This document shows, piece by piece, positions 32,993 through 54,124 of a DNA stretch of 64,000 bases (position 1 is its first letter; every line of letters starts with the position of its first letter). This DNA comes from Trichococcus shcherbakoviae (lineage in GTDB: Bacteria > Bacillota > Bacilli > Lactobacillales > Aerococcaceae), in the NCBI RefSeq assembly GCF_963666195.1, contig NZ_OY762653.1, positions 1,426,001 to 1,490,000 of the forward strand, read 5' to 3'. The position numbers and the translations under genes were made by a program. The notes under the pieces were generated by a model. That model was not told the origin of the DNA. It searched no databases and saw only the letters and a program-made list of their open reading frames with translations.

Positions 32993-33076
32993 TTATTCAT
33001 AATTTTTCCGTAGGTTTCTGAAAAGATTGTGGTACTGCGTTCCTGATTTCTCTTCTTTACTTTCATGGTGGTGCAT
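32993..33076 (-). CDS. 27-residue His-rich micro-peptide
   Basis: ATG at 33076 with AAAGGGGATAAATT upstream; the peptide begins MHHHESKEEKSG and ends with basic residues. It is too short for most gene finders. It lies between the shared-box promoter (33118-33150) and the lipoprotein gene, so it could be a metal-binding peptide or a leader that couples metal level to lipoprotein expression. Confidence 0.45.
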   Translation of the reverse strand: MHHHESKEEKSGTQYHNLFRNLRKNYE

Positions 33077-33117: not shown

Positions 33118-33150
33118 ATAATAATATATGAATGTGTTGATTTTATGTAG
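33118..33150 (-). promoter_or_regulatory. Regulon promoter P1
   Basis: Minus strand: box CTACATAAAATCAACACATT (33131-33150), 7-bp spacer, -10 TATTAT (33118-33123). It drives the 27-codon gene and the lipoprotein. Confidence 0.65.
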
Positions 33151-33159
33151 AAAAAAACC

Positions 33160-33204
33160 ATATCAAAAAGCCAAGATTTGTATATGATCTTGGCTTTTTG
33201 ATAT
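33160..33204. terminator. Perfect 18-bp stem terminator
   Basis: ATATCAAAAAGCCAAGAT / ATCTTGGCTTTTTGATAT with a 9-nt loop; probably terminates the SHOCT gene on the minus strand. Confidence 0.85.
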
Positions 33205-33273
33205 GAATAGTTCATTTCCGGAATATATTTTTGAGAAAACTCAGTTCGAGCATGAAACTTCAGACTTACCCAA

Positions 33274-33513
33274 CTAACTTTTCAATATTTTCTTCTTTTG
33301 TTGGTATTCTTCGTCTGATAATTCTCCTTTTGCATAACGCTGATCAAGGATTTCAAGTGCCTCATCCCGGCCATTTGAAGTTGTGCCAGCATTATTGCCT
33401 CCTTGGACTAGCTTCATCACCGCGTATACGATAATAACGATTAAGATTACCAGGATAATCATCATGAAAATTCCCCAACCGCCCATCATGTCATAACCAT
33501 AATAATTCATCAT
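33274..33513 (-). CDS. SHOCT-domain small membrane protein
   Basis: 79 residues from the ATG at 33513: one transmembrane helix (~8-31, after MMNYYGYDMMGGWG), linker, and a C-terminal SHOCT motif (ALEILDQRYAKGELSDEEYQQKKKIL). Such proteins are frequent in metal-resistance islands; function is unknown. The Met/Tyr-rich N-terminus may bind metal. The IS110 element lies immediately upstream and may have removed its native promoter. Confidence 0.8.
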   Translation of the reverse strand: MMNYYGYDMMGGWGIFMMIILVILIVIIVYAVMKLVQGGNNAGTTSNGRDEALEILDQRYAKGELSDEEYQQKKKILKS

Positions 33514-33589
33514 TTTTATAAGCATTCCTTTCGCTTCGCTCAAGGCACAAAACGAAATGAAAATCGTTGCGCCTTCGGCGTATATTATT

Positions 33590-33813
33590 GTATTCTTCCC
33601 CTGTAGAGTAGTTGTACACTACAAATCACGGAGGAGTGAGTAGCCCTATTTGACATTCTGTAGGACTGCATTTTTATATGTGTCATTATTCCTTCAAGTA
33701 CAAATAAGTGTGACAGTGAGCACGTAAACTTATCTTTGCAAAAGCGATCCATATATTTAGGAATAATAGTCACTGCAACACTCTACTATCCTTAAAGAAA
33801 GGAGGAAAAACTG
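33590..33813 (+). ncRNA. Candidate bridge RNA region of IS110 left end
   Basis: About 220 bp of gene-free sequence directly upstream of the IS110 transposase, with paired segments (for example TAGTTGTACACTACA near 33611). In the IS110 group the left end encodes a bridge RNA with guide loops. No reading frame explains this stretch. The fold and loops were not computed. Confidence 0.4.
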
Positions 33814-35064
33814 ATGTTGAAAATTGTTTATCCTATTTGTTGTGGAATAGATGTCCACAAAACGTTCGTGGTAGCCTGTATTGCCATCACAGACAACAAG
33901 GGAATCACAACTTACAAACGCCATCGCTTCTCGACATTCACACAAGGATTGAGAGAGCTGTTACAGTGGCTAGAGTTATTCTCTTGTTTTGATGTCTGTA
34001 TGGAATCTACGGGGAAATACTGGATCCCTGTATACAATATTCTGGAACCTTCGGTTAATATTACCCTTGCTCATCCGAAATATGTGAAAGCAATTCGCGG
34101 AAAAAAGACAGATACAAAGGATGCCCAATGGATAGCTGAGTTATTCAAACACGATTTGGTTGCAGGTAGTTTCATGCCACCACTAGCGATTCGTGAATTG
34201 CGTGATTTAATGCGCTACCGGTTCAAATTAACCAATTTTGCGTCCAGTGAAAAGAACAGATTTCAAAATTCTCTAACCGTATCCAATATTCAGATCGCTA
34301 GTGTTGTTTCCGACACATTCGGAAAAAGTGCGTTGAAAATTATCGAACGCATCCTAGAAGATCCTGAGCAGTCCATGCTTACGGCAGAAGAATTAGAGAG
34401 CTTGATTCACGGTCGCCTAATAAAGAAATTACCCGAACTTGAATTAGCAGTGGACGGTTTTATTACACCGGAACAAAAGATAAAGCTGAAGATCATTAAA
34501 GAACACTTTGATGCATTAACACTATGCAAAAAACACTTAGAAGAAACTATCCTCGAACTCGCCCAGCCTTACCAAAATGAAATCCAACTCATTCAAACTT
34601 CTCCTGGATTTAAAAATGAACTATCCGCAGTCGCATTAATTTCGGAAATTGGTGTTGATATGTCTGAATTTCATTCCTCTAAACATCTCTGTTCTTGGGC
34701 AGGATTAGCACCCACAAATAATGAAAGTGCAGGGAAGAAAAAATCCGTAAGGATTTCCAAAGCGGGCTGCTATCTCAAACCATTACTGGTTCAAATAGCC
34801 AATGCCGTTGTCAAAAGTACAAAATATCCTGAAATTAGAAATAAATATCTCAATATCAAAAAAAGAAGGGGCCATAAAAAAGCAATCATCGCTATAGCCC
34901 GTAAACTCTTAACGGCTATCTATCATATGTTGAAAAACCAGGAAGTTTATCAGGCTCAACTGTTTTCCGATATGATCGATATCCCTACTTCACGAGAAAT
35001 AACCACAGAACAAGCTCTTAAATTAATTAAGAGACAGGGCTATAAAATTACATCCGTTATATGA
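33814..35064 (+). CDS. IS110-family DEDD transposase
   Basis: 416 residues. RuvC-like N-terminal part: GIDVHKTFVVAC, FDVCMESTGKYW and KKTDTKDAQWIAEL hold the DEDD acids; the C-terminal Transposase_20 region includes SPGFKNELSAVALISEIG and TNNESAGKKKSVRISKAG. AAAGAAAGGAGG precedes the ATG. It works with a bridge RNA and leaves no inverted repeats, so the element edges cannot be set here. Confidence 0.95.
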   Translation: MLKIVYPICCGIDVHKTFVVACIAITDNKGITTYKRHRFSTFTQGLRELLQWLELFSCFDVCMESTGKYWIPVYNILEPSVNITLAHPKYVKAIRGKKTDTKDAQWIAELFKHDLVAGSFMPPLAIRELRDLMRYRFKLTNFASSEKNRFQNSLTVSNIQIASVVSDTFGKSALKIIERILEDPEQSMLTAEELESLIHGRLIKKLPELELAVDGFITPEQKIKLKIIKEHFDALTLCKKHLEETILELAQPYQNEIQLIQTSPGFKNELSAVALISEIGVDMSEFHSSKHLCSWAGLAPTNNESAGKKKSVRISKAGCYLKPLLVQIANAVVKSTKYPEIRNKYLNIKKRRGHKKAIIAIARKLLTAIYHMLKNQEVYQAQLFSDMIDIPTSREITTEQALKLIKRQGYKITSVI

Positions 35065-35105
35065 AAACCTATCGCTTATTTTTCGTAAGTGTTTATAGGT
35101 TTATT
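35065..35105 (+). terminator. Hairpin after IS110 transposase
   Basis: AAACCTAT / ATAGGTTT arms around a 22-nt loop with a weaker inner stem, directly at the stop codon. Confidence 0.6.
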
Positions 35106-35268
35106 TGGAATACCTTTTTATACGATATAAGCTCTATCTTGTTAATTATTATTTTCAAACTTTTACACTCCTTTTTTGTTTTGAGTCGCATAGGCGTGAG
35201 CTAAAAGCTGAATTTTTTCCGTTTTGTTGGCTAGCCAGTGATCATGAGGAGCAAAAGGGAATCAAGAA

Positions 35269-35311
35269 AAAAGAGCCCCTTGCTGCTTCAGCAGGTAGGG
35301 GCTCTTTAGTC
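35269..35311. terminator. Terminator-like hairpin
   Basis: AGAGCCCCT / AGGGGCTCT arms with an internal CTGC/GCAG stem, A run before and T run after. Confidence 0.75.
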
Positions 35312-35340
35312 AAAAAGTTTATTTGGACTGGAGTGGAATA

Positions 35341-35567
35341 AGATGAAACGCAGGGAGAAAAAAAGTTTTTGCGGTTCTTGATTTTCTTTTCTGTTCTCGG
35401 ATAGATCCATGTGGGACCGGAGGGAAGGGCTCCCGCATGGAAATTGCCGCCAGAACAGCCCGAAATGATAAAGCCCTGATCCGGCCCTTTCGGATCGTCC
35501 AGGGCGCTTGGCGACACAAAACGAAAAAATGACTTTAATATAGGGGGCTCTTATCAAGAGCCTTCCA
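35341..35567. other. GC-shifted structured intergenic region
   Basis: No supported gene. Stems visible: CCATGTGGGA / TCCCGCATGG (35407-35440); CCCTG-ATCCG / CGGAT-CAGGG (35474-35504); CGCCA / TGGCG closing around the latter (35449-35513); GGCTCTT / AAGAGCC (35550-35567). GC is clearly above the flanks. It could be a structured RNA on either strand or a piece of foreign DNA. Confidence 0.45.
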
Positions 35568-35695
35568 TGCCTTATAATTTCAATCTTTATTACCTGGACC
35601 TGTTTTTTCATCTTTTCCTTGAGACCTAGATTTATAAAAAGTTCTTTTATCACTATAATCCTGGCATCTTTAAGGCATACCAGCTTTACAAAGGG

Positions 35696-35707
35696 GAACT
35701 TACGTTC
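35696..35707 (+). promoter_or_regulatory. SOS (LexA/DinR) box
   Basis: GAAC-TTAC-GTTC matches the Gram-positive LexA box GAAC-N4-GTTC exactly, 58 bp before the YolD-like start. Confidence 0.7.
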
Positions 35708-35765
35708 TAAAATAAGGATACAAGAAAGACAGATGAGTGAAGTTCAGAAGAAAGGTGAGATTATC

Positions 35766-36122
35766 ATGACATACTTAAATAACCAGTACCATGATCGTGG
35801 CATGAAAAAATGGGCGGGCTTTTTCTTATCTGAACACACAGCCGAACAGGAAAAAATTCAAAAAGGATTGGCTCATATTAATCCCCAGAAGTTCCAAATG
35901 TCCGAGCAAGAAATCAGCGAAGTTCTTCAGTTGGCAATTGTGAAAAACAAACCTGTTGCAATCCAGATTGAAGCGATTGATAGCGATGGGAACTATTATG
36001 ATGATATCATCGGGCACTTAAAAGGATCCGACTCACTGGGAGTTTATGTAGGGAATGAAAAAGTGCACTATGATGAGATTAGAAATGTCGAACTGGTGGA
36101 TCATGTTAAATGGAATCAATGA
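35766..36122 (+). CDS. YolD-like protein
   Basis: 118 residues from the ATG at 35766 (AAAGGTGAGATTATC upstream). The start NNQYHDRGMKKWAGFFLSEH and end KVHYDEIRNVELV are typical of YolD-like proteins, usually encoded beside a Y-family (UmuC-like) polymerase and induced by DNA damage. The SOS box upstream supports that regulation, but no polymerase gene follows, so it is an orphan. Confidence 0.85.
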   Translation: MTYLNNQYHDRGMKKWAGFFLSEHTAEQEKIQKGLAHINPQKFQMSEQEISEVLQLAIVKNKPVAIQIEAIDSDGNYYDDIIGHLKGSDSLGVYVGNEKVHYDEIRNVELVDHVKWNQ

Positions 36123-36204
36123 TAAAAATTCATGAATGGTTATTTTATTCTTTAGATACACTTTAAATTTCCCGATTTGTGCTTCTGAAACATTTTTCTT
36201 AAGC

Positions 36205-36243
36205 AAAAAGGAATTTCTTTTAATTAAAAAGAAATTCCTTTTT
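36205..36243 (-). terminator. Terminator of the cad operon
   Basis: AAAAAGGAATTTCTTTTT / AAAAAGAAATTCCTTTTT with a 4-nt loop; usable in both directions. Confidence 0.9.
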
Positions 36244-36250
36244 CATATTT

Positions 36251-38710
36251 TTATTTATTTAGTATTCTCATGGCATTCAACACAGCTATCACGGTAACAC
36301 CTACATCCGCAAAGACCGCTTCCCACATCGAAGCCACCCCAAAGGCACCCAGAATGAGGAACAAGCCTTTCACCCCAAGGGCGAAGAAGATGTTTTGCCA
36401 AACAATGCGACGGGTATCCTTGGCCACCTGCATGGCAGTCCCAATCTTGGAGGGTTTGTCGTCCATGATCACCACGTCAGCGGCCTCAATGGCTGCGTCG
36501 GACCCCAGGCCACCCATGGCGAAGCCGATATCAGAGCGGGCCAGGACCGGGGTATCGTTGATTCCATCCCCGACGAAGGCGACTTTCTCCTTCTTCCCTT
36601 TTCGCGCGAGGATTTCTTCGAATTTTTCCACCTTGTCTTGCGGCAACAGTTCGCTGTAGACCTCTGAGATTCCCAGTTTCTTGGCCACTGCATCACCTAC
36701 AGACTGGGCGTCACCAGTGAGCATGATGATATGCTCGACTCCCTGCTCCTTCATGGTGGCGATAGCGGCTGCGGCGTCTTCCTTGATGGCGTCTGCAATC
36801 AGGAGGGAGCCGGCGTACTCACCTTCCACAGCCAGATACACGATGGTTCCGATTTCGTTCACTTCCTCGAAGTTCACCGCGAACTTCTCCATCAGGCGGG
36901 CATTCCCGGCCAACACTTCCTTGCCGTCAATGGTGGCTTGGATTCCGTGTCCGGAGATTTCGTTATAGGCGGTGATCCGGTCTTCCTGGATTGTTTGGCC
37001 ATATCTTTCCTTGATGGAATCGGCAATCGGGTGGCTGGAATAAGCCTCGGCATGGGCAGCTATTTCGAGCAGCTCTTCCGAACGGATTCCCTGTTGGGGT
37101 TCAATCGCGGTGATTTCGAACTTCCCCTTGGTCAAGGTACCGGTCTTATCCATCACCACGTACTTCAGGTCATTCAGGCCTTCCAGGTAGTTGCTGCCCT
37201 TCACGAGGATCCCTTTTCTTGAAGAAGCGCCAATTCCGCCGAAAAAACCGACGGGAATGGAGACGACCAGGGCACAGGGGCAGGAAATAACCAAGAAGAT
37301 CGCTGCCCGGTAGATCCATTCATCGAACGTCGCTCCCGGGAGTACCAAGGGTGGCACAACCGCCAACAGGAGTGCGGCGACCACGACGACGGGCGTATAA
37401 TAGCGCGCAAATTTGGTGATAAACTGCTCGGTCGGCGCCTTCCGGCCGCTGGCGTTCTCGACCAAGTCCAAAATCTTCTTAACGGTGGATTCCGCAAAGG
37501 GCTTCTCCACCACTACTTTCAGCACACCGTTGCGATTGATAAAGCCACTCAGGACGGAGTCGCCTGGGGCCACGCTCCGCGGAACCGATTCCCCGGTCAA
37601 AGCGGACGTATCCATAGCGGAGGTTCCCTCCACGATTTTCCCGTCCAACGGCACTTTCTCACCCGGTCGGACCAGAATGAAATCACCCGCCCTGATGGTT
37701 TCTGGTGCGACCTTCACAATCCCGTTTCCCGTATCCAGGTTCGCGTAATCGGGACGGATATCCATCAGGTCCGCAATCGAGCGGCGGGACTTGGAAAGGG
37801 CGACATCCTGGAATAGTTCTCCCACCTGGTAGAAGAGCATGACCGCGACGGCCTCCGGATATTCCTGTACATAGAAGGCAGCCAGCGTCGCAATTGTCAT
37901 CAGGAAGTTCTCGTCAAAGACTTGTCCGCGGACCATGTTCCGTACCGCACGCCAGACGACATCATAGCCGGCGATCAGGTAGGCAATTACGAACATGGCA
38001 AAAGACATCCATCCTTCCAGTGGCAGGAAGATCCCGGCCAGCATGAAGGAAAAACCAAGCACCAAGCGGATGATGGCTGTCCTCAGTTCATTTTTCCCCC
38101 CGTCTTCCCTATTATCCTGCTCTACCGCTTCAGCAGCTGCTGATTCCGACTCGGCTGTCTTCGTGCTCATTGCAATCAATGTACCGTCGGCCTTGTTCTT
38201 CAGGACCACATCTGGCTCCAACGTGTTCACTTTCTGTTTCACTTGGGAGAGGATTTGGTCTTTCTTCTCATTCGTCACCTCAAAGCTCAAGGTCTGCGTC
38301 ATGAAGTTCACATTGCTGTTGGCCACACCTGCTACCTGAGCCACGCCTCTTTCGACCTTGCTCGCACAGTTGGCGCAGTCGATCCCGTCGAGGATCCATT
38401 CGTAGTGTTTTTCGTCCTCTTTTGGCTGGGTATCCTTGCTGGCTTCAGTATCCAGCTTGAGTAGGCGGCCGTCGGCCTTGTTTTTCAGGATCACGTCGGG
38501 CTCCAGCTTATTCACTTTCTGTTTCACTTGGGAGAGGATTTGGTCTTCCCTTTCCCCAGTCACCTCGAAGCTCAAGGTTTGGGTCATGTAGTTCACGTTG
38601 CTGTTGGCCACACCTGCCACCTTCGCAACGCCTCTTTCTACTTTATTAGCACAATTAGCGCAATCGATCCCATCGAGGATCCATTCGTGTTGTTTCTTGT
38701 TCTCGTCCAT
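36251..38710 (-). CDS. cadA: Cd/Zn/Pb-exporting P1B-type ATPase with two HMA domains
   Basis: 819 residues. Two N-terminal metal-binding domains, each with DGIDCANC (Cys17/Cys20 and Cys112/Cys115), are near copies at protein level. Then the eight-helix pump: CPC in SCPCALVVSIPVGF, phosphorylation site VMDKTGTLTKG, and GDGINDTP. The GIDCAN(C) and CPC motifs together with CadC/CadD neighbours indicate export of Cd, Zn or Pb. GC is higher than in most of the window, as expected for a transferred resistance gene. The ATG follows AAGGAGAGACGCA. Confidence 0.95.
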   Translation of the reverse strand: MDENKKQHEWILDGIDCANCANKVERGVAKVAGVANSNVNYMTQTLSFEVTGEREDQILSQVKQKVNKLEPDVILKNKADGRLLKLDTEASKDTQPKEDEKHYEWILDGIDCANCASKVERGVAQVAGVANSNVNFMTQTLSFEVTNEKKDQILSQVKQKVNTLEPDVVLKNKADGTLIAMSTKTAESESAAAEAVEQDNREDGGKNELRTAIIRLVLGFSFMLAGIFLPLEGWMSFAMFVIAYLIAGYDVVWRAVRNMVRGQVFDENFLMTIATLAAFYVQEYPEAVAVMLFYQVGELFQDVALSKSRRSIADLMDIRPDYANLDTGNGIVKVAPETIRAGDFILVRPGEKVPLDGKIVEGTSAMDTSALTGESVPRSVAPGDSVLSGFINRNGVLKVVVEKPFAESTVKKILDLVENASGRKAPTEQFITKFARYYTPVVVVAALLLAVVPPLVLPGATFDEWIYRAAIFLVISCPCALVVSIPVGFFGGIGASSRKGILVKGSNYLEGLNDLKYVVMDKTGTLTKGKFEITAIEPQQGIRSEELLEIAAHAEAYSSHPIADSIKERYGQTIQEDRITAYNEISGHGIQATIDGKEVLAGNARLMEKFAVNFEEVNEIGTIVYLAVEGEYAGSLLIADAIKEDAAAAIATMKEQGVEHIIMLTGDAQSVGDAVAKKLGISEVYSELLPQDKVEKFEEILARKGKKEKVAFVGDGINDTPVLARSDIGFAMGGLGSDAAIEAADVVIMDDKPSKIGTAMQVAKDTRRIVWQNIFFALGVKGLFLILGAFGVASMWEAVFADVGVTVIAVLNAMRILNK

Positions 38711-38750
38711 TGCGTCTCTCCTTATTGAATATTAGTTTGAATGGCTTTCT

Positions 38751-39362
38751 CTATAATCCCAACAGGGTTTGAATGGTGCCATTTTCTATCATAATATAAA
38801 TTCCTAATCCAATAAAAACCAGCGAGACTATCACCCGCTGATACTTCTCGATTGTTTCTGATATCAAGGTAATTTTTGATAATCTGTAACTGATATAGCA
38901 AAGGATCGCCACAGAGATGGCGAAAACAATTAACGCTACACCAATTTCAATTCCAGCTAGTGATGTAAAGTAAGGGATATAAATACCTAGATTGTCACCA
39001 CCGGAAGCCACGGTAATCAGGGCTACCGTCCAAAATAATCGGTTTCCCCCTCCTGCTTCCATTTTTTCAAGCACTTCCTCTTCATCTTCATCCTGCTCTC
39101 CCTTGAAAGCAATCCGAATTCCTAAGTACAGTGGAATCAATCCCAACAAACCAATAATCCAGTCTTCAGGAATGAGGTTTAAAACATAGGCTGCAAATAA
39201 ACTGAACGCAACGAGCATTCCCGTTCCCAGGTATTGTCCCCCAACGATTCCCTTCATCTTCCCCTTCGTGCTGCTTTGAGAGAAGATAATCATGAGGATC
39301 AGGAGATAATCAATACTGGTAGAAACATAAACCGCAAGGGCAGATATAATTGTTTGTAACAT
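38751..39362 (-). CDS. cadD: CadD-family cadmium resistance transporter
   Basis: 203 residues from the ATG at 39362 (GGGAG upstream); the frame is open earlier but overlaps cadC. Five or six hydrophobic segments, with the family signatures VYVSTSIDYLLILMIIF and ALITVASGGDNLGIYIPYF and an acidic cytoplasmic loop (EQDEDEEEVLEKME). It is thought to export or sequester cadmium. It lies 15 bp after cadC and 40 bp before cadA, giving one operon. Confidence 0.9.
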   Translation of the reverse strand: MLQTIISALAVYVSTSIDYLLILMIIFSQSSTKGKMKGIVGGQYLGTGMLVAFSLFAAYVLNLIPEDWIIGLLGLIPLYLGIRIAFKGEQDEDEEEVLEKMEAGGGNRLFWTVALITVASGGDNLGIYIPYFTSLAGIEIGVALIVFAISVAILCYISYRLSKITLISETIEKYQRVIVSLVFIGLGIYIMIENGTIQTLLGL

Positions 39363-39376
39363 AGGTGCGCTCCCAT

Positions 39377-39751
39377 CTAAGATATAAGTTGCAAGTCTTC
39401 TCCCACTCTTAAGACCGAGCAAATAAAAGTCACTATTTCTTCGTTGGCCAGCGAATAGTAAACCATCTTCCCTTCTTGATACGATACTGTGACACCGTTT
39501 TTCTTCAAGAAGCGCAAGTGGTGAGAAGTTGACGCCATACTGGCATTAATGATTGCGGCTAAATCGCATACGCACATCTCTTTATAAGTAGCGAGTGCAT
39601 ATAAAATCTTTATCCTTGAAGAATCCCCTAGACACTTGCTCAGTACTAATAAATCCGCAAAATCTTTATCTTTCAGTTCCGTTTGAACCTGGTCAACTTT
39701 TTCTGCATGAATAATCGTCGTTTTACAAACGTCCAAATCTATATTTTTCAT
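39377..39751 (-). CDS. cadC: ArsR/SmtB-family metal repressor CadC
   Basis: 124 residues from the ATG at 39751 (AAAGGGGTGTAAAG upstream). Winged helix with the CadC metal site: Cys in LDVCKT near the N-terminus and CVCDL before the recognition helix (ASMASTSHHLRFLKKNGV). Cd, Pb or Zn binding releases it from the operator at 39764-39789. First gene of cadC-cadD-cadA. Confidence 0.95.
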   Translation of the reverse strand: MKNIDLDVCKTTIIHAEKVDQVQTELKDKDFADLLVLSKCLGDSSRIKILYALATYKEMCVCDLAAIINASMASTSHHLRFLKKNGVTVSYQEGKMVYYSLANEEIVTFICSVLRVGEDLQLIS

Positions 39752-39763
39752 CTTTACACCCCT

Positions 39764-39789
39764 TTCATTCAAATGTTCGTTTGAATGAA
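39764..39789 (-). promoter_or_regulatory. CadC operator
   Basis: Perfect dyad TTCATTCAAA-N6-TTTGAATGAA just upstream of the cadC start; the TTCAA-type arms match known CadC/SmtB-family sites. Confidence 0.85.
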
Positions 39790-39965
39790 GTGTAGCACAT
39801 TCTCTCTTGTTTTTCTATATTATTGGAGTCGCATTTACGCATTAATTCAGATTTTCTGCTAAAAATTACGCCCCTTCTATTGTAAATCCTCTAAAGTTCA
39901 AAGTTTGAAATCATAGTAGTTATTAATTTTCTGGAAAAAGTTTTTGATATTTATCGCCTAGTATT

Positions 39966-40240
39966 CCTTACAACCACAGAAAGAAAAACAATTCAGTCAA
40001 TTGCCACACCGTGGACTTCATCAAAAAAACCGCATGCGGACAACTGAAATCTACTATATTCTGCATGAAGCCATTCAAACACATAGAGAAGTTGCCATAC
40101 AAATAGAAGCCATTGATTGCAACGGCTCCTATCAGGAAGATATCATCGGCTTCATTAAGAATTCCGATTTGCTCGGTATTTATATAAAGAATCAAAAAGT
40201 TCACTATGATGAGATACGAAACATCCAATTTTACACTTAA
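39966..40240 (+). pseudogene. YolD-like gene fragment
   Basis: The last ~65 residues (EVAIQIEAIDCNGSYQEDII ... KVHYDEIRNIQFY) align with the intact YolD protein at 35766-36122, but the N-terminal half is lost. It lies beyond the cad operon, so cadCDA appears to sit between an intact and a broken YolD copy. Confidence 0.75.
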
Positions 40241-40293
40241 AAACTGGTTTTATAGCTTGAATAGCGTTCCATTGAAGCGAATACCAGGAGGGT

Positions 40294-40521
40294 TTATTTC
40301 GGATTGGGAAAATCAAAGGCTAGTTTATTATTAACCAACTTCAATTTGGCGTTGAAAGGGGTGCCTTTTTTGCTCTTAAATCCTTTTATGAGGCTGGTTT
40401 CTTGTTTGAGCAACAAATCCTTTATATTCTTCTTCGTGAGGGTCTTCCCACTCCATTTTTTAGGCAGTGTAAAGGTACACCCCTCACGGTAACCCGTGCA
40501 ACCATAGAATAGTACCCTCAC
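40294..40521 (-). pseudogene. Type IA topoisomerase (TopB-like) C-terminal fragment
   Basis: 75 residues: FYGCTGYREGCTFTLPKKW then TSLIKGFKSKKGTPFNAKL, the C-terminal repeat of plasmid-type DNA topoisomerase III/I. The catalytic part is missing and a stop lies directly before the fragment. It marks past rearrangement of plasmid DNA. Confidence 0.75.
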
Positions 40522-40575
40522 TTACTAAACACCAATTCTTACTACTTATCCATACTTTGAGGATTTGTTAACCCT

Positions 40576-40649
40576 AATATACCGGAGCAATGTGTAGATT
40601 TAATGGAGTTTTGCTTCTTCATACAGTCTACATAATCACCTAGTATGCT
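40576..40649. promoter_or_regulatory. Divergent regulon promoters P2 and P3
   Basis: Minus: box CTCCATTAAATCTACACATT (40589-40608), 7 bp, -10 TATATT (40576-40581). Plus: box CTTCATACAGTCTACATAAT (40617-40636), 7 bp, -10 TATGCT (40644-40649). The two boxes face away from each other with an 8-bp gap, exactly as at 47063-47110. P3 drives the 58-residue gene; P2 now faces only a gene fragment. Confidence 0.7.
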
Positions 40650-40697
40650 ATGACTATGAAATCTAAAAAAAACAATCCAGAAAGAAGGACATAGACT

Positions 40698-40874
40698 ATG
40701 CAAACAACTCTATTTATCATTTTAGTACTACTGGTTCCTGTTTTGACGATGGTAATCCTAAGTGCAGTTCGTAAACATAATTCTGTTTTAAGCGCAGATG
40801 TAAAAAGATTACGGGTAGAAAATGAGGCTTTGAGGAAAGAGCTTCTTAAACGCGGCATCATCGAATATGTTTAA
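40698..40874 (+). CDS. 58-residue membrane/coiled-coil peptide
   Basis: ATG with AAAGAAGGACATAGACT upstream. One N-terminal transmembrane helix (TLFIILVLLVPVLTMVIL) and a charged helix (DVKRLRVENEALRKELLKR). The layout (helix plus short coiled coil containing EN-x-x-L-K/R-x-E-L) is the same as in the peptide at 47260-47469, though without its His/Met segment. Its promoter carries the shared box. Function unknown; perhaps a small envelope-stress adaptor. Confidence 0.7.
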   Translation: MQTTLFIILVLLVPVLTMVILSAVRKHNSVLSADVKRLRVENEALRKELLKRGIIEYV

Positions 40875-40901
40875 CAGTGGTAAAAAAAATAAACCTTAAG
40901 G

Positions 40902-40939
40902 AAAAGCATGCAGACAAAAAGTCTCCATGCTTTTTTTTC
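40902..40939 (+). terminator. Terminator after 58-residue gene
   Basis: AAAAGCATG / CATGCTTTT stem with an inner AGAC/GTCT pairing and a T8 tail. Confidence 0.85.
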
Positions 40940-41035
40940 TTGATTTCTACCTTTTCATCAAGGCATTCGCCCAATAGCTCGTAATCTTGGAGAGCCTAAT
41001 AGAAAGATTATCTTCTGGATTAGAACGAATCCTCA

Positions 41036-41602
41036 TTAAGAATGAAACTGAAGAACTTCTTGTATCTTTTCGAATACAATGTCGGGCTTTTGTTCGCCAT
41101 TGACCATAGAAACGATTCCCGCTTCCTGATAGAAACCCGTCAGTGCTTCCATTTCGAGCTCACTCAGTTGTAGCCGTCTTTCTATGACTTCTGATTTATC
41201 CTCTGACCAAGGCAAATTGACCCTCTTTTCTAACCTTTTCCGTAAGACCTCTTTCCCAACAGCCAGATAGAGGACAACATCCAGCGACAGTCTTTTGCTT
41301 TCCAGATATGCTTCTAACGCTTCCGCTTGCTGACGCGTTCGCGGATATCCATCCAAAATGAAACCCTCTTTCATGTCATCCTCTCCCATGCGATCCCAGA
41401 GGAGTTTATTGACCAATCTATCGGGGACTAGTTTTCCCATATCCATGAACGTTTTGACTTCTAGACCGATCGGACTACCCATCTCAGCGAAAGATCGGAA
41501 GATTTCACCTGTAGAGATATACGGAATCTGATAGGTAACTGCGATTTCCCTCGCTTGGGTTCCCATTCCAGCGCCGGGCATTCCCATTATAATGATATTC
41601 AT
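41036..41602 (-). CDS. Adenylate kinase-like protein lacking the P-loop lysine
   Basis: 188 residues, short form without a zinc or lid insertion. The fold is clear: N-terminal P-loop region MNIIIMGMPGAGMGTQA, AMP-site STGEIFR, GFILDGYPRTRQQAEAL, then a helical end. But the Walker A lysine (normally GxPGxGKGTQ) is Met13, codon ATG; this lysine is needed for phosphoryl transfer in known enzymes. The gene has a shared-box promoter (P4), so it is regulated with the metal-stress genes and is unlikely to be the housekeeping enzyme. It may be a nucleotide-binding regulator or a decaying copy. Confidence 0.8.
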   Translation of the reverse strand: MNIIIMGMPGAGMGTQAREIAVTYQIPYISTGEIFRSFAEMGSPIGLEVKTFMDMGKLVPDRLVNKLLWDRMGEDDMKEGFILDGYPRTRQQAEALEAYLESKRLSLDVVLYLAVGKEVLRKRLEKRVNLPWSEDKSEVIERRLQLSELEMEALTGFYQEAGIVSMVNGEQKPDIVFEKIQEVLQFHS

Positions 41603-41662
41603 TTTCTAACACTCCTTATCTGCATTATGCCTCTATCGGATCGTACACAACCATTCACTACT

Positions 41663-41695
41663 AAGATAGCGCATGATTGTGTAGGGCGTATGGAG
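41663..41695 (-). promoter_or_regulatory. Regulon promoter P4 (adenylate kinase-like gene)
   Basis: Minus strand: box CTCCATACGCCCTACACAAT (41676-41695), 7 bp, -10 TATCTT (41663-41668), about 60 bp before the start codon. Confidence 0.7.
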
Positions 41696-41791
41696 AAACA
41701 AAAAAACAAATATTTGCAGTAGTTCTAAAGGCATTAATAGGCCGACAGAACTTTTCCTACTGCTTCTTTAAAAACAATAGGACATCTTCTA

Positions 41792-41824
41792 CTCCATAAA
41801 ACCCACACAATGAAAAGGTAAACT
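41792..41824 (+). promoter_or_regulatory. Regulon promoter P5 (two-component system)
   Basis: Box CTCCATAAAACCCACACAAT (41792-41811), 7 bp, -10 TAAACT (41819-41824). It lies upstream of the response regulator gene, implying autoregulation. Confidence 0.7.
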
Positions 41825-41935
41825 CAATTCAGCAATATTGGAAAACTACCATCGTGCATTGCTCAGGAAAGATGGTGCGGTGGGACAATTTTTAGTAGTA
41901 CAGAATCAATCGTGTGAATGATGGAGGGAAAACAT

Positions 41936-42622
41936 ATGAAAATTTTGATTGTAGATGACGAGGAAAACATTTTGGAGATTGTAGAGGCGTACTTGGTTGC
42001 TAAAAACTACCAAGTATTCAGAGCCATGGACGGAGAAGAAGCCTTGCGGAAAGCCGAAACCATCCGGCCGGATCTCATCGTCCTGGACCTCATGCTGCCG
42101 GATATCTCCGGTCTTGAGGTCTGCCGAAGAATAAGAAAATCCTCCAGCGTGCCCGTGATTATGCTGACGGCGAGAACAACGGAACAGGATATCCTGAGCG
42201 GACTGCAAATCGGCGCGGACCATTATATGACGAAACCCTTCAGCCCCAAAGAACTGGTGGCCCGAGTACAGACTGTACTGCGACGCTCACATCCGGAACC
42301 CCAAGAGGTGAAATGGTCCTTCGAAGGTGGTTTATTGGAAATCTATCCCGATAACAAGCAAGTATTCAAAAAGGGCGTAGAAGTGGGACTAACGCCAACT
42401 GAGTACAAGTTGCTGACTCTTCTGGCGTCACATCCTCAGCAGATTTTCCCTAGGCAACAGCTCTTGCAGGTCGTAAAAGGATTAGATTTTGACGGAACAG
42501 ATCGAGTCATTGATGTCCATATTAAGAACCTGCGACAAAAGATAGAAGATGATGATACGCGAACCCCCTACTATATCCTGACAATCTATGGAGAGGGATA
42601 CCGATTTGGTGGTCAAAAATGA
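41936..42622 (+). CDS. OmpR-family response regulator
   Basis: 228 residues from the ATG at 41936 (GGAGGGAAAACAT upstream). Receiver domain with acidic pair Asp7/Asp8, phospho-acceptor Asp51 (LIVLDLMLPD) and Lys in YMTKPF; winged-helix DNA-binding domain (VGLTPTEYKLL ... RVIDVHIKNLRQKIEDD). It overlaps the kinase gene by 4 bp (ATGA). It is the natural candidate to bind the repeated 20-bp box found at seven promoters, including its own. Confidence 0.95.
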   Translation: MKILIVDDEENILEIVEAYLVAKNYQVFRAMDGEEALRKAETIRPDLIVLDLMLPDISGLEVCRRIRKSSSVPVIMLTARTTEQDILSGLQIGADHYMTKPFSPKELVARVQTVLRRSHPEPQEVKWSFEGGLLEIYPDNKQVFKKGVEVGLTPTEYKLLTLLASHPQQIFPRQQLLQVVKGLDFDGTDRVIDVHIKNLRQKIEDDDTRTPYYILTIYGEGYRFGGQK

Positions 42623-44016
42623 AGCGAACAATAAAGTGGCAACTTCTCCTTTCCTTCGTTTCGCTTTCTTTTATTCTGGTAGGAGCCTTCAGCTGGATAA
42701 CCCTGAACTTACTAGAGAGCCACTTTTCTGACTATGTCAGGGAGAGACAGGAGTCAGAGTTGGAAGAATACAGCACTGATTTAGAGAATCTCTATCAACA
42801 AAACGGTACCTGGGAAGAAAATTCGCAAGCAATTGAGCGTGTTGGGCGAAATGCTCTCCAACAGGCAGTGATTGTGAAGATATACGACGAGGATGGGCAA
42901 CTTTTATGGCAGCCGTCCCCTTCTGAGGAAGAAGAGGCGAATACCCAGATGCAAGACCATCTCCTGCATATGGAGAAAACGGTATGGGATATAGAGAGCG
43001 ACTACCTACAAACCCGCGTTACCCTCTATGATGGTGCCGAAGAAATTGGAACGCTGGAAGTCCAATCAGTGAGCCCCCACGCTTATACACAACATGATGC
43101 TCTCTTCATTTCCGGTATGAAGAGTACCGTGGTTCTGGTAGCTCTTATCTCGCTCCTCATTCCCCTCTTCTTTGCGCTACTGGTGGCCAAAAAGCTTAGT
43201 TCTCCTATCGTCACAATCAATGATTTCACCAAGGAAATTGCCAAAGGGCGTTACAGCAGTCTTTCTCTGGAAGAAACAGGAATCCGGGAGATTGATGACC
43301 TGCTGGTATCAGTGAATGATCTTTCCTTGCAACTTCAACACCAACAGAAGATCCGAAACCGTTTGTCCTCCGATATTGCTCATGAAATCAGAACGCCTTT
43401 GACGACCTTGAAAGGGAATATTGAAGCCATGATAGATGGTGTTTGGGAAATATCTGAAGAGCGGCTCTATCGTTGTTACGAAGAGGTAAGCCGAATTACG
43501 CGTCTGATTGGAGAAATCGATCGGATCAACGAACTCGAAAGTCAGGAGTCTCAGCTACAGAAAACCACCTTTGATCTTACGGAATTAGCCCAACAAATCG
43601 TGGATAATTTCCAACCCATGCTGGTTGAAAATAAACTCAACTGCTCCGTTAGTGGTGATCGCGTATTTATTTCTGCGGATCGGGACAAAATCCATCAGGT
43701 CTTAACTAATCTGTTGGCAAATGCCATTAAGTTTACCCCTTCGGGAGGAAGAATCGACCTTTACGTTTCGCAAAGTAAAGGCACCACTTCCTTTCGGATA
43801 ATCGACAACGGACAAGGTATCCCTCCGGAAGAGGTGGGCCAAATATTTGAACGGTTCTATATGGCGGAGCCCTCCCGAAACAGTAAACTAGGGGGGCAAG
43901 GAATAGGCCTTTCCATTGTAAAGGGCATTGTGAATGCGCATCAAGGGACTATTTCCGTAGATAGTATTTATGGGAAAGGCACAACATTTACAATCAATCT
44001 TCCCAAGGCAAAATAA
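42619..44016 (+). CDS. Sensor histidine kinase
   Basis: 465 residues: transmembrane helix 1 (~9-30), extracellular sensor (~32-165), helix 2 (~168-190), HAMP, dimerisation domain with His255 (SSDIAHEIRTPLTTLKG), and HATPase (NLLANAIKFTP, IIDNGQGIP, GGQGIGLSIVKG). The sensor part is acidic with several Met and His. By neighbourhood it probably detects copper or metal-induced envelope stress; the ligand is not shown. A 5'-truncated relative lies at 31112-31543. Confidence 0.95.
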   Translation: MKRTIKWQLLLSFVSLSFILVGAFSWITLNLLESHFSDYVRERQESELEEYSTDLENLYQQNGTWEENSQAIERVGRNALQQAVIVKIYDEDGQLLWQPSPSEEEEANTQMQDHLLHMEKTVWDIESDYLQTRVTLYDGAEEIGTLEVQSVSPHAYTQHDALFISGMKSTVVLVALISLLIPLFFALLVAKKLSSPIVTINDFTKEIAKGRYSSLSLEETGIREIDDLLVSVNDLSLQLQHQQKIRNRLSSDIAHEIRTPLTTLKGNIEAMIDGVWEISEERLYRCYEEVSRITRLIGEIDRINELESQESQLQKTTFDLTELAQQIVDNFQPMLVENKLNCSVSGDRVFISADRDKIHQVLTNLLANAIKFTPSGGRIDLYVSQSKGTTSFRIIDNGQGIPPEEVGQIFERFYMAEPSRNSKLGGQGIGLSIVKGIVNAHQGTISVDSIYGKGTTFTINLPKAK

Positions 44017-44028
44017 AATAGGGTTTAT

Positions 44029-44072
44029 AAAAAAGTACTCCAACTAATTAAATAGGGTTGGAGTACTTTTTT
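44029..44072. terminator. Terminator between kinase and NusG_II genes
   Basis: AAAAAAGTACTCCAAC / GTTGGAGTACTTTTTT; shared by the converging units. Confidence 0.9.
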
Positions 44073-44087
44073 CAGTGGTCTATTCTC

Positions 44088-44504
44088 TTATCGTGCAAGG
44101 ACATCAATCTCCGCCTCTGTCGGATTATCGGATACAATCTCAATTAGCATGCGGTGGGGTAAGTTTAGACTAGTTTGTCCAAGTGATTGGATCCACCCTG
44201 TCCTCACGGCGATTTGCTGGGGGCTGTTATCCGATTTGTCACGAATCCGCTCCCCATCAATTTCGATAATATTATACTTCCCGGGAGCAGGATAGTAGGT
44301 GATAAGCCGCTGTTTCTCATTTCCGGTCAGGAGGAAGCGGTCCACTTCCTCGCCGTTGAACGAGATAACTGCATACAGCTTGCTCTTTTCTATGTGCGCA
44401 GTTTCAACGGCGAAGATCATTGTCGGTAAAAAAGATAGAACAAACAGAAAAGAGACAATAATGATATCAAAAGGTTTCACCATTCTACGATACTTTTTAA
44501 TCAT
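44088..44504 (-). CDS. NusG domain II-like membrane-anchored protein
   Basis: 138 residues: a transmembrane/signal segment (~12-32), then a NusG_II-type beta domain (YNIIEIDGERIRDKSD, AVRTGWIQSLGQTSLNLPHRMLIEI). The usual Cys pair of this group (CPDxxC) is replaced by NSPQQI. Last gene of the M23-lgt-SHOCT-NusG_II operon. Related proteins often accompany flavin or quinone-linked membrane systems; the role here is unknown. Confidence 0.7.
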   Translation of the reverse strand: MIKKYRRMVKPFDIIIVSFLFVLSFLPTMIFAVETAHIEKSKLYAVISFNGEEVDRFLLTGNEKQRLITYYPAPGKYNIIEIDGERIRDKSDNSPQQIAVRTGWIQSLGQTSLNLPHRMLIEIVSDNPTEAEIDVLAR

Positions 44505-44527
44505 GATTCTCCCCCTTTTTCTCTCGT

Positions 44528-44770
44528 TTACTCTAACTGTTTTTTTCTCTTCAAGTACTCTGCTTCCGTAATATTATCTCTGGCAAATTCTTTTTGAATC
44601 TGTTCCAAAGAGGTCTCATTCGCAATTCGACTATCTGTTCGATCGGAAAGAATCTTGATAAGGAGGTACGCCACCATAAACAGCACTACAATCCAAAGCA
44701 ACCCAATCAATCTCAAAGGTCCCAATCCGTCATGATTCAGTAGATTCCAATAACTCGACATGCCACTCAC
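44528..44770 (-). CDS. SHOCT-domain small membrane protein
   Basis: 80 residues from a GTG at 44770 (AGGAAAGA upstream; ATG at 44761 possible). One transmembrane helix (~20-40) and a SHOCT motif at the end (LEQIQKEFARDNITEAEYLKRKKQL). Second such protein in the island (see 33274-33513). Third gene of the shared-box M23 operon. Confidence 0.8.
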   Translation of the reverse strand: MSGMSSYWNLLNHDGLGPLRLIGLLWIVVLFMVAYLLIKILSDRTDSRIANETSLEQIQKEFARDNITEAEYLKRKKQLE

Positions 44771-44796
44771 ACTCTTTCCTGTTATCCGTCTTTACT

Positions 44797-45639
44797 TCAA
44801 TCTCTTTCTCCTTTGAGGTTCCATCCTTCTAGATAGTAGGTTTTGGGCGGATAATCCCTTCTCCGGTAAATCCAAATACCAATCGCACCCACAAACAAGA
44901 GCAAGGACAATCCCTGTGACACCCGCAAGAAATCACCAATCCACAAACTATCCGTGCGCAGGCCCTCTATGAAGAATCTGCCCGCTGAATACCAGATGAT
45001 ATAGCTGAGGGCCACTTCGCCTTGCCGCAACAAACCCTTGCGGTTTCGCAAGGCAATGATTACGCCAAATCCGAGGAGACTCCATAATGACTCGTAGAGG
45101 AAGGTGGGCTGGTAGTACACACCGTTAATTTGCATCTGATCAATGACAAACTTCGGAAGGTACAAGTTCTCCAGAAATGTTCGAGTCACTTCTCCACCAT
45201 GTGCTTCCTGGTTAGTGAAGTTGCCCCATCGACCGATGGATTGGGCCAAAAGGACATAGGGAGCCAGCACATCCAACATCAAGGCAACGGGAATCCTCTT
45301 TTTCTTGGTGTACCAATAGACAGTGAATCCCCCTGCAATCAACCCCCCATAAATGGCAATTCCACCATTCCAGATTTGGACGATTTCGCCCGGATTTTGC
45401 AGATAGTACTGCCATTCGAAGAGAATGTAGTAGATTCTGGCTCCAATCAGCCCAATGGGAATCGCCCACATTGTCATATCTGTAACGGTATCTTCTCCTA
45501 AGCCTCTTTTCGTGCCCTCCTTGGACGCCAAGGAGATTGCCAATAGCATAGCAGCCCCAATGATAATCCCATACCAGTAGACGGTGAATGGGCCAAATGA
45601 GAAAGCTACGCGATCAATTGTTCCTACTATTGTTTCCAT
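44797..45639 (-). CDS. lgt: Prolipoprotein diacylglyceryl transferase
   Basis: 280 residues with seven hydrophobic segments and the Lgt signature GRWGNFTNQEAHGG. It attaches diacylglycerol to the lipobox Cys of prolipoproteins. Lgt is normally encoded once beside hprK; its place here in a regulated metal-stress operon suggests an additional island copy, perhaps serving lipoproteins such as the beta-propeller one at 31713. GGAGGAAAG precedes the ATG. Confidence 0.95.
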   Translation of the reverse strand: METIVGTIDRVAFSFGPFTVYWYGIIIGAAMLLAISLASKEGTKRGLGEDTVTDMTMWAIPIGLIGARIYYILFEWQYYLQNPGEIVQIWNGGIAIYGGLIAGGFTVYWYTKKKRIPVALMLDVLAPYVLLAQSIGRWGNFTNQEAHGGEVTRTFLENLYLPKFVIDQMQINGVYYQPTFLYESLWSLLGFGVIIALRNRKGLLRQGEVALSYIIWYSAGRFFIEGLRTDSLWIGDFLRVSQGLSLLLFVGAIGIWIYRRRDYPPKTYYLEGWNLKGERD

Positions 45640-45682
45640 ACTTTCCTCCTTATAAGAAAAAAACGTTTATTTTATAGTGCTT

Positions 45683-46999
45683 TTACAATCCCAAGTAAGG
45701 TTCTGGGTCAACCTGAACCCCATTCTCATAAACCTCGAAATGCAGGTGGACACCTGTTGAATCCCCCGTTGTTCCCATTATCCCCAATTGTTGTCCTTGG
45801 GATACTTTTTGTCCGGGAGCAACCCGAAGGCTGCCCGCTTCCATGTGAGCGTATAAAGTTTGGAGTCCGTTTCCATGGTCGATTTTCACGTAGTAGCCCC
45901 ATGAATTATGGTATCCGGCCACTAGAACGGTTCCCCCCTGGGCTGCCACAATCGGTCCCGATCCGGCAAAATCCATGCCCGCATGCAATTTCCACTCCCC
46001 TGTAAGAGGATGGATTCTGTATCCAAAAGGATCTGTTACAATCCCATTACTCGGGCGAATGAAACCAGACGCGGTAACGCTCTTCGCTTCAGGCAGGGTT
46101 TCCCCCGCAGAGGCATACTCCACTACCTTGCTTTCTTCGAAGAAGCTTTCAGGAACAATCTCACCCGCCATTGCAACCGCGACCTCTTGTGCAGCCTGTT
46201 GTCGTACTACTTCTTCATCAGCGATCCGGCGTTGCTCCTCCTTCAGTTGATCGGAGAGGGTGCTCACCGTTCCGGCAAGATTCTGTTGCTCCTGAGCAAT
46301 CGCTTCTTTTTGTTCCACCGTAAGATCATACTCTTGGGCTAGCTGCTCGATTTGATTCTCCAGCCCTGCTTTCTGTGTCACCAAATTGGTTTTGGCTACT
46401 TGGATTTCCGCACTCAGTATTTCGAGGTTTTCCTGCTCGTCCTCAGCTGCCTGCTTTTTCTCCACCAGATCCATTTTGTCATTTTTCTGCTGGACGAGTA
46501 TTTCCTTGTTGATGTTCATAATGTAAGTTACTAAGCCTATGTTCCCTATCATTTCTGCAAGGTTCTCCGAGTTGATAACTGCTTCCAGGAGAGTACGTGG
46601 ATTTGTATCTGTTTGGACGGCTCTGGCTTGCACTTTAAGCTTTTCCCCTCTTAATTCAATCCGTTCTTCCAGCATTTCGGCTGCTTTACTTAATTCCTTT
46701 ATTTTTTCCTCAGAACTTTGCAATTTCCCCTGCTGTTCAACTAATTGTAGGGTGAGCTTGTCGATTTCCTTTTGCAGGGTGATTGTTCCAACCCCAAGTT
46801 GCTCTTTCTTTGCCTCCAATGTGTCCAATAGCTCTTGTTGCCCTGAAGAATTCTCATCCAATTCTTGGATTCTGCTTTCCAATTCCGTTTTTTGTTGATT
46901 GAGCTCTTCCAGCGTATCAGCTTTCACATCCAAAGGTACCACCAGTAAACTTAAAAGCGTGGGAATTCCTAAAATCCTGAACATCTGCTTTCTATTCAT
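45683..46999 (-). CDS. Secreted M23 (LytM) peptidase with long coiled coil
   Basis: 438 residues: signal peptide (cleavage near DVKA), long Glu/Gln/Lys/Leu-rich coiled coil (~25-270), then a LytM domain with SNGIVTDPFGYRIHPLTGEW, HAGMDF and HLHFEVYENG (the zinc ligands His, Asp and His). This is the EnvC/PcsB-like architecture of cell-wall hydrolases or their activators. First gene of the operon driven by P6, so wall remodelling belongs to the stress response. Confidence 0.9.
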   Translation of the reverse strand: MNRKQMFRILGIPTLLSLLVVPLDVKADTLEELNQQKTELESRIQELDENSSGQQELLDTLEAKKEQLGVGTITLQKEIDKLTLQLVEQQGKLQSSEEKIKELSKAAEMLEERIELRGEKLKVQARAVQTDTNPRTLLEAVINSENLAEMIGNIGLVTYIMNINKEILVQQKNDKMDLVEKKQAAEDEQENLEILSAEIQVAKTNLVTQKAGLENQIEQLAQEYDLTVEQKEAIAQEQQNLAGTVSTLSDQLKEEQRRIADEEVVRQQAAQEVAVAMAGEIVPESFFEESKVVEYASAGETLPEAKSVTASGFIRPSNGIVTDPFGYRIHPLTGEWKLHAGMDFAGSGPIVAAQGGTVLVAGYHNSWGYYVKIDHGNGLQTLYAHMEAGSLRVAPGQKVSQGQQLGIMGTTGDSTGVHLHFEVYENGVQVDPEPYLGL

Positions 47000-47049
47000 G
47001 TATCCTCCTTAAATGTCGGCAAAATTTGCCCCTTTCTTTTGCTTATTTT

Positions 47050-47123
47050 ACTGTACCAAGGAATTATGTAGGTTTTATGGAGTTGTTAATCTCCATAAAA
47101 CCCACATAGTTTTACTCTATTCT
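47050..47123. promoter_or_regulatory. Divergent regulon promoters P6 and P7
   Basis: Minus: box CTCCATAAAACCTACATAAT (47063-47082), 7 bp, -10 TACAGT (47050-47055). Plus: box CTCCATAAAACCCACATAGT (47091-47110), 7 bp, -10 TATTCT (47118-47123). The boxes form a near-perfect inverted pair separated by 8 bp. Confidence 0.8.
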
Positions 47124-47259
47124 TGTCTTAGAAAGTTATTCTGAATCTTATTCGCTTCACTGATGGAATTGGGTTCTTCGTAATTTTTTAATCTATCGTC
47201 CATTTCTTTACTAACGTGTTAGTTGTAGCATTGGCGAAAAAATAAAAGGAGAGTTGAAC

Positions 47260-47469
47260 ATGGAATCAATCTTATTTATTGTTTTGATGGTGGCAGGGCA
47301 CATACTCATGATGTTTGTTATGCCAGGTATGCATGGCGGACATAATCATAAAGGACATGGTCACGCGGATCCCGAATCGGAAGACAAGAAAAAGTTGGAA
47401 ATTGAAAACAAACGGTTAAAAGAGGAATTGAACGTAGTAAAATCAAAAATAAATCAAAATGAATTGTGA
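47260..47469 (+). CDS. Met/His-rich small membrane peptide
   Basis: 69 residues from the ATG at 47260 (AAGGAG at 8-bp spacing; the upstream TTG is too close). A transmembrane segment ending MMFVMPGMHGGHNHKGHGHAD is rich in Met and His, a good site for Cu(I)/Cu(II), and is followed by a charged helix (LEIENKRLKEELNVVKSK). Driven by P7. It resembles the 58-residue peptide at 40698 in layout. Likely an envelope copper-binding protein. Confidence 0.75.
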   Translation: MESILFIVLMVAGHILMMFVMPGMHGGHNHKGHGHADPESEDKKKLEIENKRLKEELNVVKSKINQNEL

Positions 47470-54068: not shown

Positions 54069-54124
54069 TACAAGTGTAAACGTTTCTATACTTATAATTT
54101 ACACTTGTAAACATTATTTGTCAA
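54069..54124 (-). promoter_or_regulatory. cop operon promoter with two cop boxes
   Basis: TACAAGTGTA (54069-54078) and TACACTTGTA (54100-54109), both matching the CopY box TACANNTGTA. A -35 TTGACA on the minus strand lies at 54119-54124, so the second box covers the promoter spacer. Confidence 0.9.

Follow-up and report, generated by a model that had tools for sequence, protein, structure and literature searches.

A 64-kb stretch of the Trichococcus shcherbakoviae genome (64,000 nucleotides of contig NZ_OY762653.1, positions 1,426,001 to 1,490,000; hereafter the window) contains seven promoters in which the same 20-bp box stands 7 bp upstream of the -10 hexamer, and in their midst a two-component system with a response regulator (41918-42622) and a sensor histidine kinase. 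From sequence comparisons, we consider it likely that the box is the binding site of this regulator and of its close relatives, that the kinase would sense Cu(I)/Ag(I), and that the output would be an envelope programme.

A tandem repeat in the place of the -35 element

The window was scanned with the box pattern of an initial annotation of this DNA, followed by seven free bases and TANNNT (<=3 mismatches), and 100 dinucleotide shuffles of the window were used as background. Seven matches were recovered in the 64 kb, all where that annotation had placed them (shuffles: mean 0.01, maximum 1). When the -10 was ignored, the 20-bp box alone returned the same seven at <=3 or <=4 mismatches, and nine at <=5. 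Thus, a chance origin is ruled out both by the shuffles and by the scan without the -10 criterion. The claimed 7-base spacer also stood: TANNNT follows at this distance in 7/7 window boxes against a background of 2.2%, while the other spacings between 0 and 25 gave 0-2 of seven. Both divergent pairs have exactly the same 8-bp gap, as had been noted. The boxes and what lies behind them are:

33131..33150, minus strand: -10 TATTAT at 33118-33123; before the genes of a 27-amino-acid (aa) His peptide and a propeller lipoprotein
40589..40608, minus strand: -10 TATATT at 40576-40581; a topoisomerase III C-terminal piece downstream
40617..40636, plus strand: -10 TATGCT at 40644-40649; before the gene of a 58-aa membrane peptide
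41676..41695, minus strand: -10 TATCTT at 41663-41668; before adk2
41792..41811, plus strand: -10 TAAACT at 41819-41824; before the two-component operon
47063..47082, minus strand: -10 TACAGT at 47050-47055; before M23-lgt2-SHOCT-NusG_II
47091..47110, plus strand: -10 TATTCT at 47118-47123; before the gene of a 71-aa peptide and lit2

Across 66 unique 33-mers the box reads as a tandem repeat, CTMCATAA-N3-CYACAYAA-T, whose half-sites (CTMCATAA and CYACAYAA) lie 11 bp apart; the box of the initial annotation is real, but this repeat had been overlooked. Identity between box positions amounts to 0.657 at offset 11, 0.515 at 9, 0.485 at 14, 0.21 at 10 and 0.23 at 12, and a period of 9 was rejected as weaker than 11. 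T2, A5, C15, A16 and A18 of the box show no variation, and five of the seven spacer positions hold <0.3 bit. Of 73 non-identical sites (51 loci), 72 have the -10 at the 7-base distance, part of these loci having been picked via pattern matches that required the -10. The counts free of this selection bias are the 7/7 of the window and the 30/30 sites from 49 loci that were collected solely on protein similarity and include many Trichococcus near-copies.

Regulators of the OmpR/PhoB family use tandem direct-repeat sites with a period of ~11 bp that overlap the -35 position. The box, as a predicted site, has this layout, and its position in place of the -35 (as proposed initially) agrees with a site of the PhoB/OmpR type. 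The best match to TTGACA is <=3/6 in 65 of the 66 unique sites, which rules out a plain sigma-70 promoter with a -35. Between divergent boxes the gap measures 8 bases in four pairs, 9 in eight, 18 in four, 28 in one, 11 in three and 13 in one; most of these differ by about whole helical turns, and four do not.

In the 2.93-Mb genome, 16 matches were found at <=3 mismatches, versus 2 for the reversed pattern. Outside the window, a divergent pair (C1:1285626/1285669) is flanked by two genes, one for a DUF6803 membrane protein and one paralogous to that of the 58-aa peptide, and box C1:1997147 adjoins a second two-component system (67% identical). At this second locus (C1:1995-1997 kb) a transposase gene stands between the box and a SHOCT-like peptide gene further downstream; in G068, another genome of the species, box and gene are adjacent. 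Site C1:1856729, which departs from the final consensus at 4 positions and has no labelled target, and, with the exception of 1285626, the remaining 3-mismatch sites outside the window were set aside as likely chance matches.

Co-occurrence with the regulator and recurrent target genes

A scan of this and related genomes, as the initial annotation had proposed, revealed that the box tracks the regulator in both the family and the order. In the family set (76 genomes; regulator at E <=1e-75, box at <=2 mismatches) the regulator was found in 16 genomes, the box in 17 and both in 15, so that 15/16 regulator-positive genomes carry the box as compared with 2/60 negative ones (Fisher 7e-13). The exceptions are G055 (regulator without box), G064 (box in a genome that is 63% complete) and G073, whose box (G073:C183) was put down to chance because that genome is also hit by the reversed control.

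The order set comprised 395 Lactobacillales genomes (regulator at E <=1e-70, a slightly wider box pattern, tally by hand), with the regulator in 44 and the box in 89. Distant homologues (L096-L167, mostly <=46% identity, some matched in the receiver part only) were left out of the box scan. At least one box was present in 34/44 regulator-positive versus 55/351 negative genomes (Fisher 1e-16), and at least two in 28/44 versus 7/351 (Fisher 3e-25). Outside the home family, any box was found in 20/29 positive versus 48/294 negative genomes (Fisher 5e-9). The positive genomes hold 137 sites in total, against 9 for the reversed control. Because genomes of one genus are not independent these p values are too small, and the counts of box and regulator across several families are the stronger point.

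The genes behind the box were surveyed in 36 fetched regions (445,624 bases, with one overlap, L232/L233; <=4 mismatches), which yielded 71 sites (one counted twice) versus 0-2 in each of five mononucleotide shuffles. Sixty-one of them precede a gene that matches our labelled set (BLAST E <=1e-3; a few matches are short or weak): M23 peptidase, Lgt2, the 71-aa peptide with Lit2, NusG_II, SHOCT-like peptides, multicopper oxidase, regulator, DUF1541, Adk2, the 58-aa peptide, DUF6803, Met-rich membrane protein, Cu ATPase and propeller lipoprotein. These target sites are spread over five families of the order (f1, f2, f3, f6, f8). Of the ten sites without a labelled match, some precede, by eye, an amylase-like gene and a 113-aa protein found in at least two genomes. 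Others stand before a Mur-ligase-like gene, which in G119 (Pfam) and G084 (by eye; regions L224 and L226) is divergent to M23 at a pair of boxes and widens the wall theme.

In the two Enterococcus/Listeria copper plasmids checked (E. faecalis p1521-a and one from Listeria monocytogenes) the box precedes lgt2, and in C. inhibens, E. hirae, L. raffinolactis and Marinilactibacillus boxes separate the genes on the lgt2 side from those on the lit2 side. The lit2 of Listeria/Enterococcus has merely a degenerate box (6 mismatches), and G238 has one with 4. The cluster accompanies tcr or other copper genes in the six plasmids read, of which the one from Aerococcus holds the peptide-lit part only. Within Trichococcus, T. 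ilyis, T. flocculiformis, T. pasteurii, T. collinsii and sp. K1Tr carry the regulator at 95-100% identity, and T. ilyis has a second set of boxes and targets with an 85-86% identical regulator. The cluster is accessory, since G068 (same species, 98% complete) carries only a 67% identical regulator. A Trichococcus-type regulator at 99% identity on a contig filed under a Methanothrix metagenome-assembled genome (L091) probably reflects binning contamination.

In the window, the two-component system and the genes behind the boxes are:

31713..32921, minus strand: YncE/YVTN beta-propeller lipoprotein (PF21783, E 5e-25)
32993..33076, minus strand: 27-aa His-rich peptide, starting MHHHESKEEKSGTQ; apparent stump of a 93-aa peptide
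40698..40874, plus strand: 58-aa membrane peptide with a coiled-coil-like tail (by eye); no Pfam match; paralogue behind box C1:1285669
41036..41602, minus strand: adk2, short adenylate-kinase-like protein; Met in place of the P-loop Lys; neither Cys nor zinc LID
41918..42622, plus strand: OmpR/PhoB-family response regulator (PF00072, E 1e-31; PF00486, E 3e-25)
42619..44016, plus strand: sensor histidine kinase; H35-F36 after the first transmembrane helix (TM1), M111/H114/H117/M118 loop, H159 before TM2
44088..44504, minus strand: NusG domain II protein (PF07009, E 8e-21)
44528..44770, minus strand: 80-aa membrane peptide with a SHOCT-like tail; BLAST relative of box-driven SHOCT-like peptides
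44797..45639, minus strand: lgt2, second prolipoprotein diacylglyceryl transferase (PF01790, E 8e-74); other copy at C1:2140079
45683..46999, minus strand: M23 peptidase with a PcsB-type coiled coil (PF01551, PF24568)
47254..47469, plus strand: 71-aa Met/His-rich membrane peptide with a coiled-coil-like tail (by eye); no Pfam match
47459..48121, plus strand: lit2, second lipoprotein intramolecular transacylase (PF07314, E 9e-52); other copy at C1:375321

The target families named in the initial annotation held, with three amendments. The first concerns its DUF1461 protein, which is the Pfam Lit family, a point it had overlooked; therefore, the window pairs an extra Lgt with an extra Lit, and these are designated lgt2 and lit2 because each enzyme has a further copy elsewhere in the genome. 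Lit2 scores above the cut-offs of PF07314 (176.1 vs 24 bits) and TIGR01906 (160.2 vs 74.8), and below that of the NCBIfam equivalog NF051877 (115.5 vs 400 bits). Secondly, the box at 40589-40608 (minus strand) has no intact target in the window, where a 75-aa topoisomerase III C-terminal piece follows instead; behind its equivalent lies a Met-rich membrane protein in T. ilyis, G065 and G067. Thirdly, the 27-aa His-rich micro-peptide seems to be what is left of a 93-aa membrane peptide rich in His, Met and Cys, found behind the same box in T. ilyis (L088).

The 33-mer of that promoter (33131-33150) has identical copies in T. ilyis and in G010, where it precedes the propeller lipoprotein gene (L222); no regulator of G010 passes the E <=1e-75 threshold. 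Near the window's propeller gene, a 143-aa open reading frame (31112-31543) looks by eye like the ATPase region at the C-terminus of a histidine kinase of this type, and is possibly the remnant of another two-component copy. The 80-aa peptide had no Pfam match, and a related 78-aa peptide matches SHOCT below the cut-off.

Adk2 is devoid of Cys and of the four-Cys LID of the housekeeping enzyme, and the Adk of the E. faecalis copper plasmid is also Cys-free. As the P-loop (Walker-A) Lys is Met, Ile or Leu in all seven Trichococcus copies read, Adk2 may not be an active kinase; it could be a pseudo-kinase conserved in the metal regulon, while a metal-tolerant substitute is only one possibility among others.

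The sensor, the proposed mechanism and its alternatives

The regulator that had been placed in the middle of the boxes is indeed of the OmpR family, with a receiver and a Trans_reg_C winged helix. In an alignment of 14 kinases, the His-Phe after TM1 is invariant and the His before TM2 is present in >=90% (one row ends before that column). The Ag(I) ligands of E. coli CusS are H42, F43 and H176 together with S84, M133, M135 and H145, according to the accessible part of PMC10100754. The H35-F36...H159 of the window kinase and its Met/His loop match this pattern by position only, without an alignment to CusS.

We propose that the kinase would sense Cu(I)/Ag(I) outside the membrane through its membrane-proximal His-Phe...His and its Met/His loop, as described for E. 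coli CusS. The phosphorylated regulator would bind the two 8-bp half-sites, 11 bp apart, as a head-to-tail dimer which, positioned 7 bp upstream of a -10 without a good -35, would recruit RNA polymerase and hence act as an activator. The second Lgt and the second Lit would then re-lipidate lipoproteins into the lyso form. The rest of the output would consist of the PcsB-like M23 hydrolase, the Met/His-rich membrane peptides, the propeller lipoprotein and the sensor itself (with autoregulation of the two-component operon via box 41792..41811), joined in relatives by a multicopper oxidase, a DUF1541 protein and a Cu ATPase. The CopA operon presumably stays under CopY.

Several observations weigh against this proposal. 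A search for sequence similarity between the sensor and solved CusS structures came up empty (the best hits were PhoQ, E 0.03), and the two-component pair falls short of the cut-offs of the Cus/Sil/Cop subfamilies TIGR01387/TIGR01386 (155.5 vs 279.2 and 205 vs 292.55 bits). The kinases of Enterococcaceae and Listeria keep the His-Phe...His and lack the Met/His loop. No strong box was found just upstream of the response regulator gene in E. hirae, L. raffinolactis, E. faecalis and Listeria. Ten of the 44 regulator-positive genomes of the order have no box at the stringency used (G055, whose regulator is 64% identical, and nine others whose regulators are 52-60% identical). Finally, the regulator-negative genomes hold 63 sites versus ~80 for the reversed control (a chance level), so that the pattern evidently has chance matches in the 55/351 negative genomes. 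Given the positional nature of the match, the lack of similarity to CusS structures, the unmet cut-offs and the absence of the loop in Enterococcaceae/Listeria, we suggest that the kinase may work like CusS and do not claim that it is CusS.

Some of the same observations could be accommodated if the regulon were real and its signal were envelope damage (lipoprotein, peptidoglycan or salt/acid stress), the metal genes being mere passengers of the island. The targets are envelope enzymes (including the Mur-ligase-like gene of G119 and G084), WalK and BaeS are the top-ranked NCBIfam models for the kinase, the loop is missing in Enterococcaceae/Listeria, and a multicopper oxidase of a Listeria plasmid is induced by salt and acid, as stated in the accessible part of PMC6669625. 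We nevertheless regard this reading as unlikely, considering that the His-Phe...His is kept in the aligned sensors, that the box also stands before multicopper oxidase, Cu-ATPase, DUF1541 and Met/His-rich peptide genes, and that copper genes, tcr or others, accompany the cluster in the six plasmids.

It is quite unlikely, in our opinion, that the box belongs mainly to the 67% identical paralogue (C1:1993100), or to both regulators, with that of the window being redundant or cross-talking. The Trichococcus boxes before lgt2, lit2, M23, adk2 and the regulator occur together with the window-type regulator, and the second such set of T. ilyis comes with its 85-86% identical counterpart; yet the recognition-helix region of the paralogue is nearly identical to that of the window regulator, and boxes persist, ahead of genes for SHOCT-like, DUF6803, 58-aa-peptide or Met-rich proteins, in G060, G065, G067 and G068, where the only regulator recovered was the one of 64-67% identity.

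That the boxes are copies of one promoter which duplication and island transfer carried around, with no regulation in common, is highly improbable: some promoters share even the spacer and the -10 (e.g., ATGCG-TATCTT-like ends before adk2 and others) and the cluster is absent from G068, but unrelated genes follow the boxes, and half-sites, 7-bp spacing and -10 are kept while most spacer positions are not.

Known copper systems and biological meaning

A copper element with lit2 and lgt2 has reportedly been described in Listeria and Enterococcus by Armbruster et al. in 2019. In the accessible parts of PMC8275575 and PMC8689077, lit2 is copper-induced and lies with lgt2 on a mobile copper element, and lyso-form lipoproteins are proposed to bind less copper. 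The window resembles this element, as far as these sources describe it, in having a second Lit beside a second Lgt, an adjacent pair of the cusRS type, copper genes and a mobile character; a box-bearing lgt2 promoter is shared too, in the two plasmids taken to carry the element. The arrangement differs: in the element lit2 is preceded by the degenerate 6-mismatch box and followed by copY, a chaperone and mco, whereas in the window it follows the 71-aa peptide gene behind a strong box, divergent from M23-lgt2.

In the accessible part of PMC4511184, the corresponding pair of the E. faecalis copper island is named cusRS and probably regulates cueO, and lgt and an adenylate kinase are listed on the island. 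The p1521-a regulator (59%) and kinase (42%) are homologous to those of the window; the E. faecalis kinase lacks the Met/His loop, and neither a site nor a regulon is given in that part of the source. With E. coli CusRS (PMC10100754, accessible part), the shared features are the His-Phe...His membrane-proximal ligands and the Met/His loop, by position; unlike CusRS, the window system falls below the NCBIfam subfamily cut-offs and its box targets include lipoprotein enzymes and wall enzymes. CopRS of Corynebacterium glutamicum is a Gram-positive copper two-component system with a 20-bp tandem repeat (TGAAGATTT-N2-TGAAGATTT, again of 11-bp period), but its half-site sequence differs and, in the accessible part of PMC3140484, there is one functional site, far from the mapped cg3286 start. 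No binding site or regulon for the system of the window was found in the literature searched, among the matches listed. The initial annotation had spoken of a new envelope metal-stress regulon: an envelope and metal regulon is what best fits the co-occurrence, the recurrent targets and the CusS-like kinase, but it is only partly new, cusRS having already been named and copper-induced lit2/lgt2 already published, as far as the accessible parts of the sources above go.

The CopY/CopA operon and the ArsR/CadA genes (36251-39772) lack the box, as had been claimed for the CopY and CadC operons. Two cop-operator motifs (TACANNTGTA) are present upstream of copY, at 54069 and 54100 (three in the window vs 0.68 expected), and none was found near the lit2 of Listeria. 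The accessory lit and lgt adjoin the Cu-type ATPase genes 48296-50413 and 51110-53569; downstream of lit2 comes a Cu-type ATPase gene in convergent orientation, with no copY or mco adjoining. The CopB-type ATPase (48296-50413) has an N-terminal run of nine DHSKM-like Met/His repeats.

Copper-induced remodelling by Lit2 was known from the accessible parts of the published work; the gap addressed here is its tie to the sensing of metal at the surface and the co-travel of lgt2, a wall hydrolase and small membrane proteins. The predicted site is searchable and makes of these genes, across five families of the order, a defined regulon that takes in the copper plasmids of Enterococcus and Listeria. 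Tentatively, and with somewhat less than even confidence, we envisage that the Cu/Ag islands of Lactobacillales may carry a dedicated regulon for extracytoplasmic metal that remakes the surface: Lgt2 and Lit2 would mask the metal-binding N-termini of lipoproteins, alongside a wall hydrolase and metal-tolerant replacements (e.g., the Cys-free Adk2), with CopY serving cytoplasmic efflux separately. This suggests a division of labour within one genome, in which CopY would govern the CopA operon and the CusS-like system the envelope.

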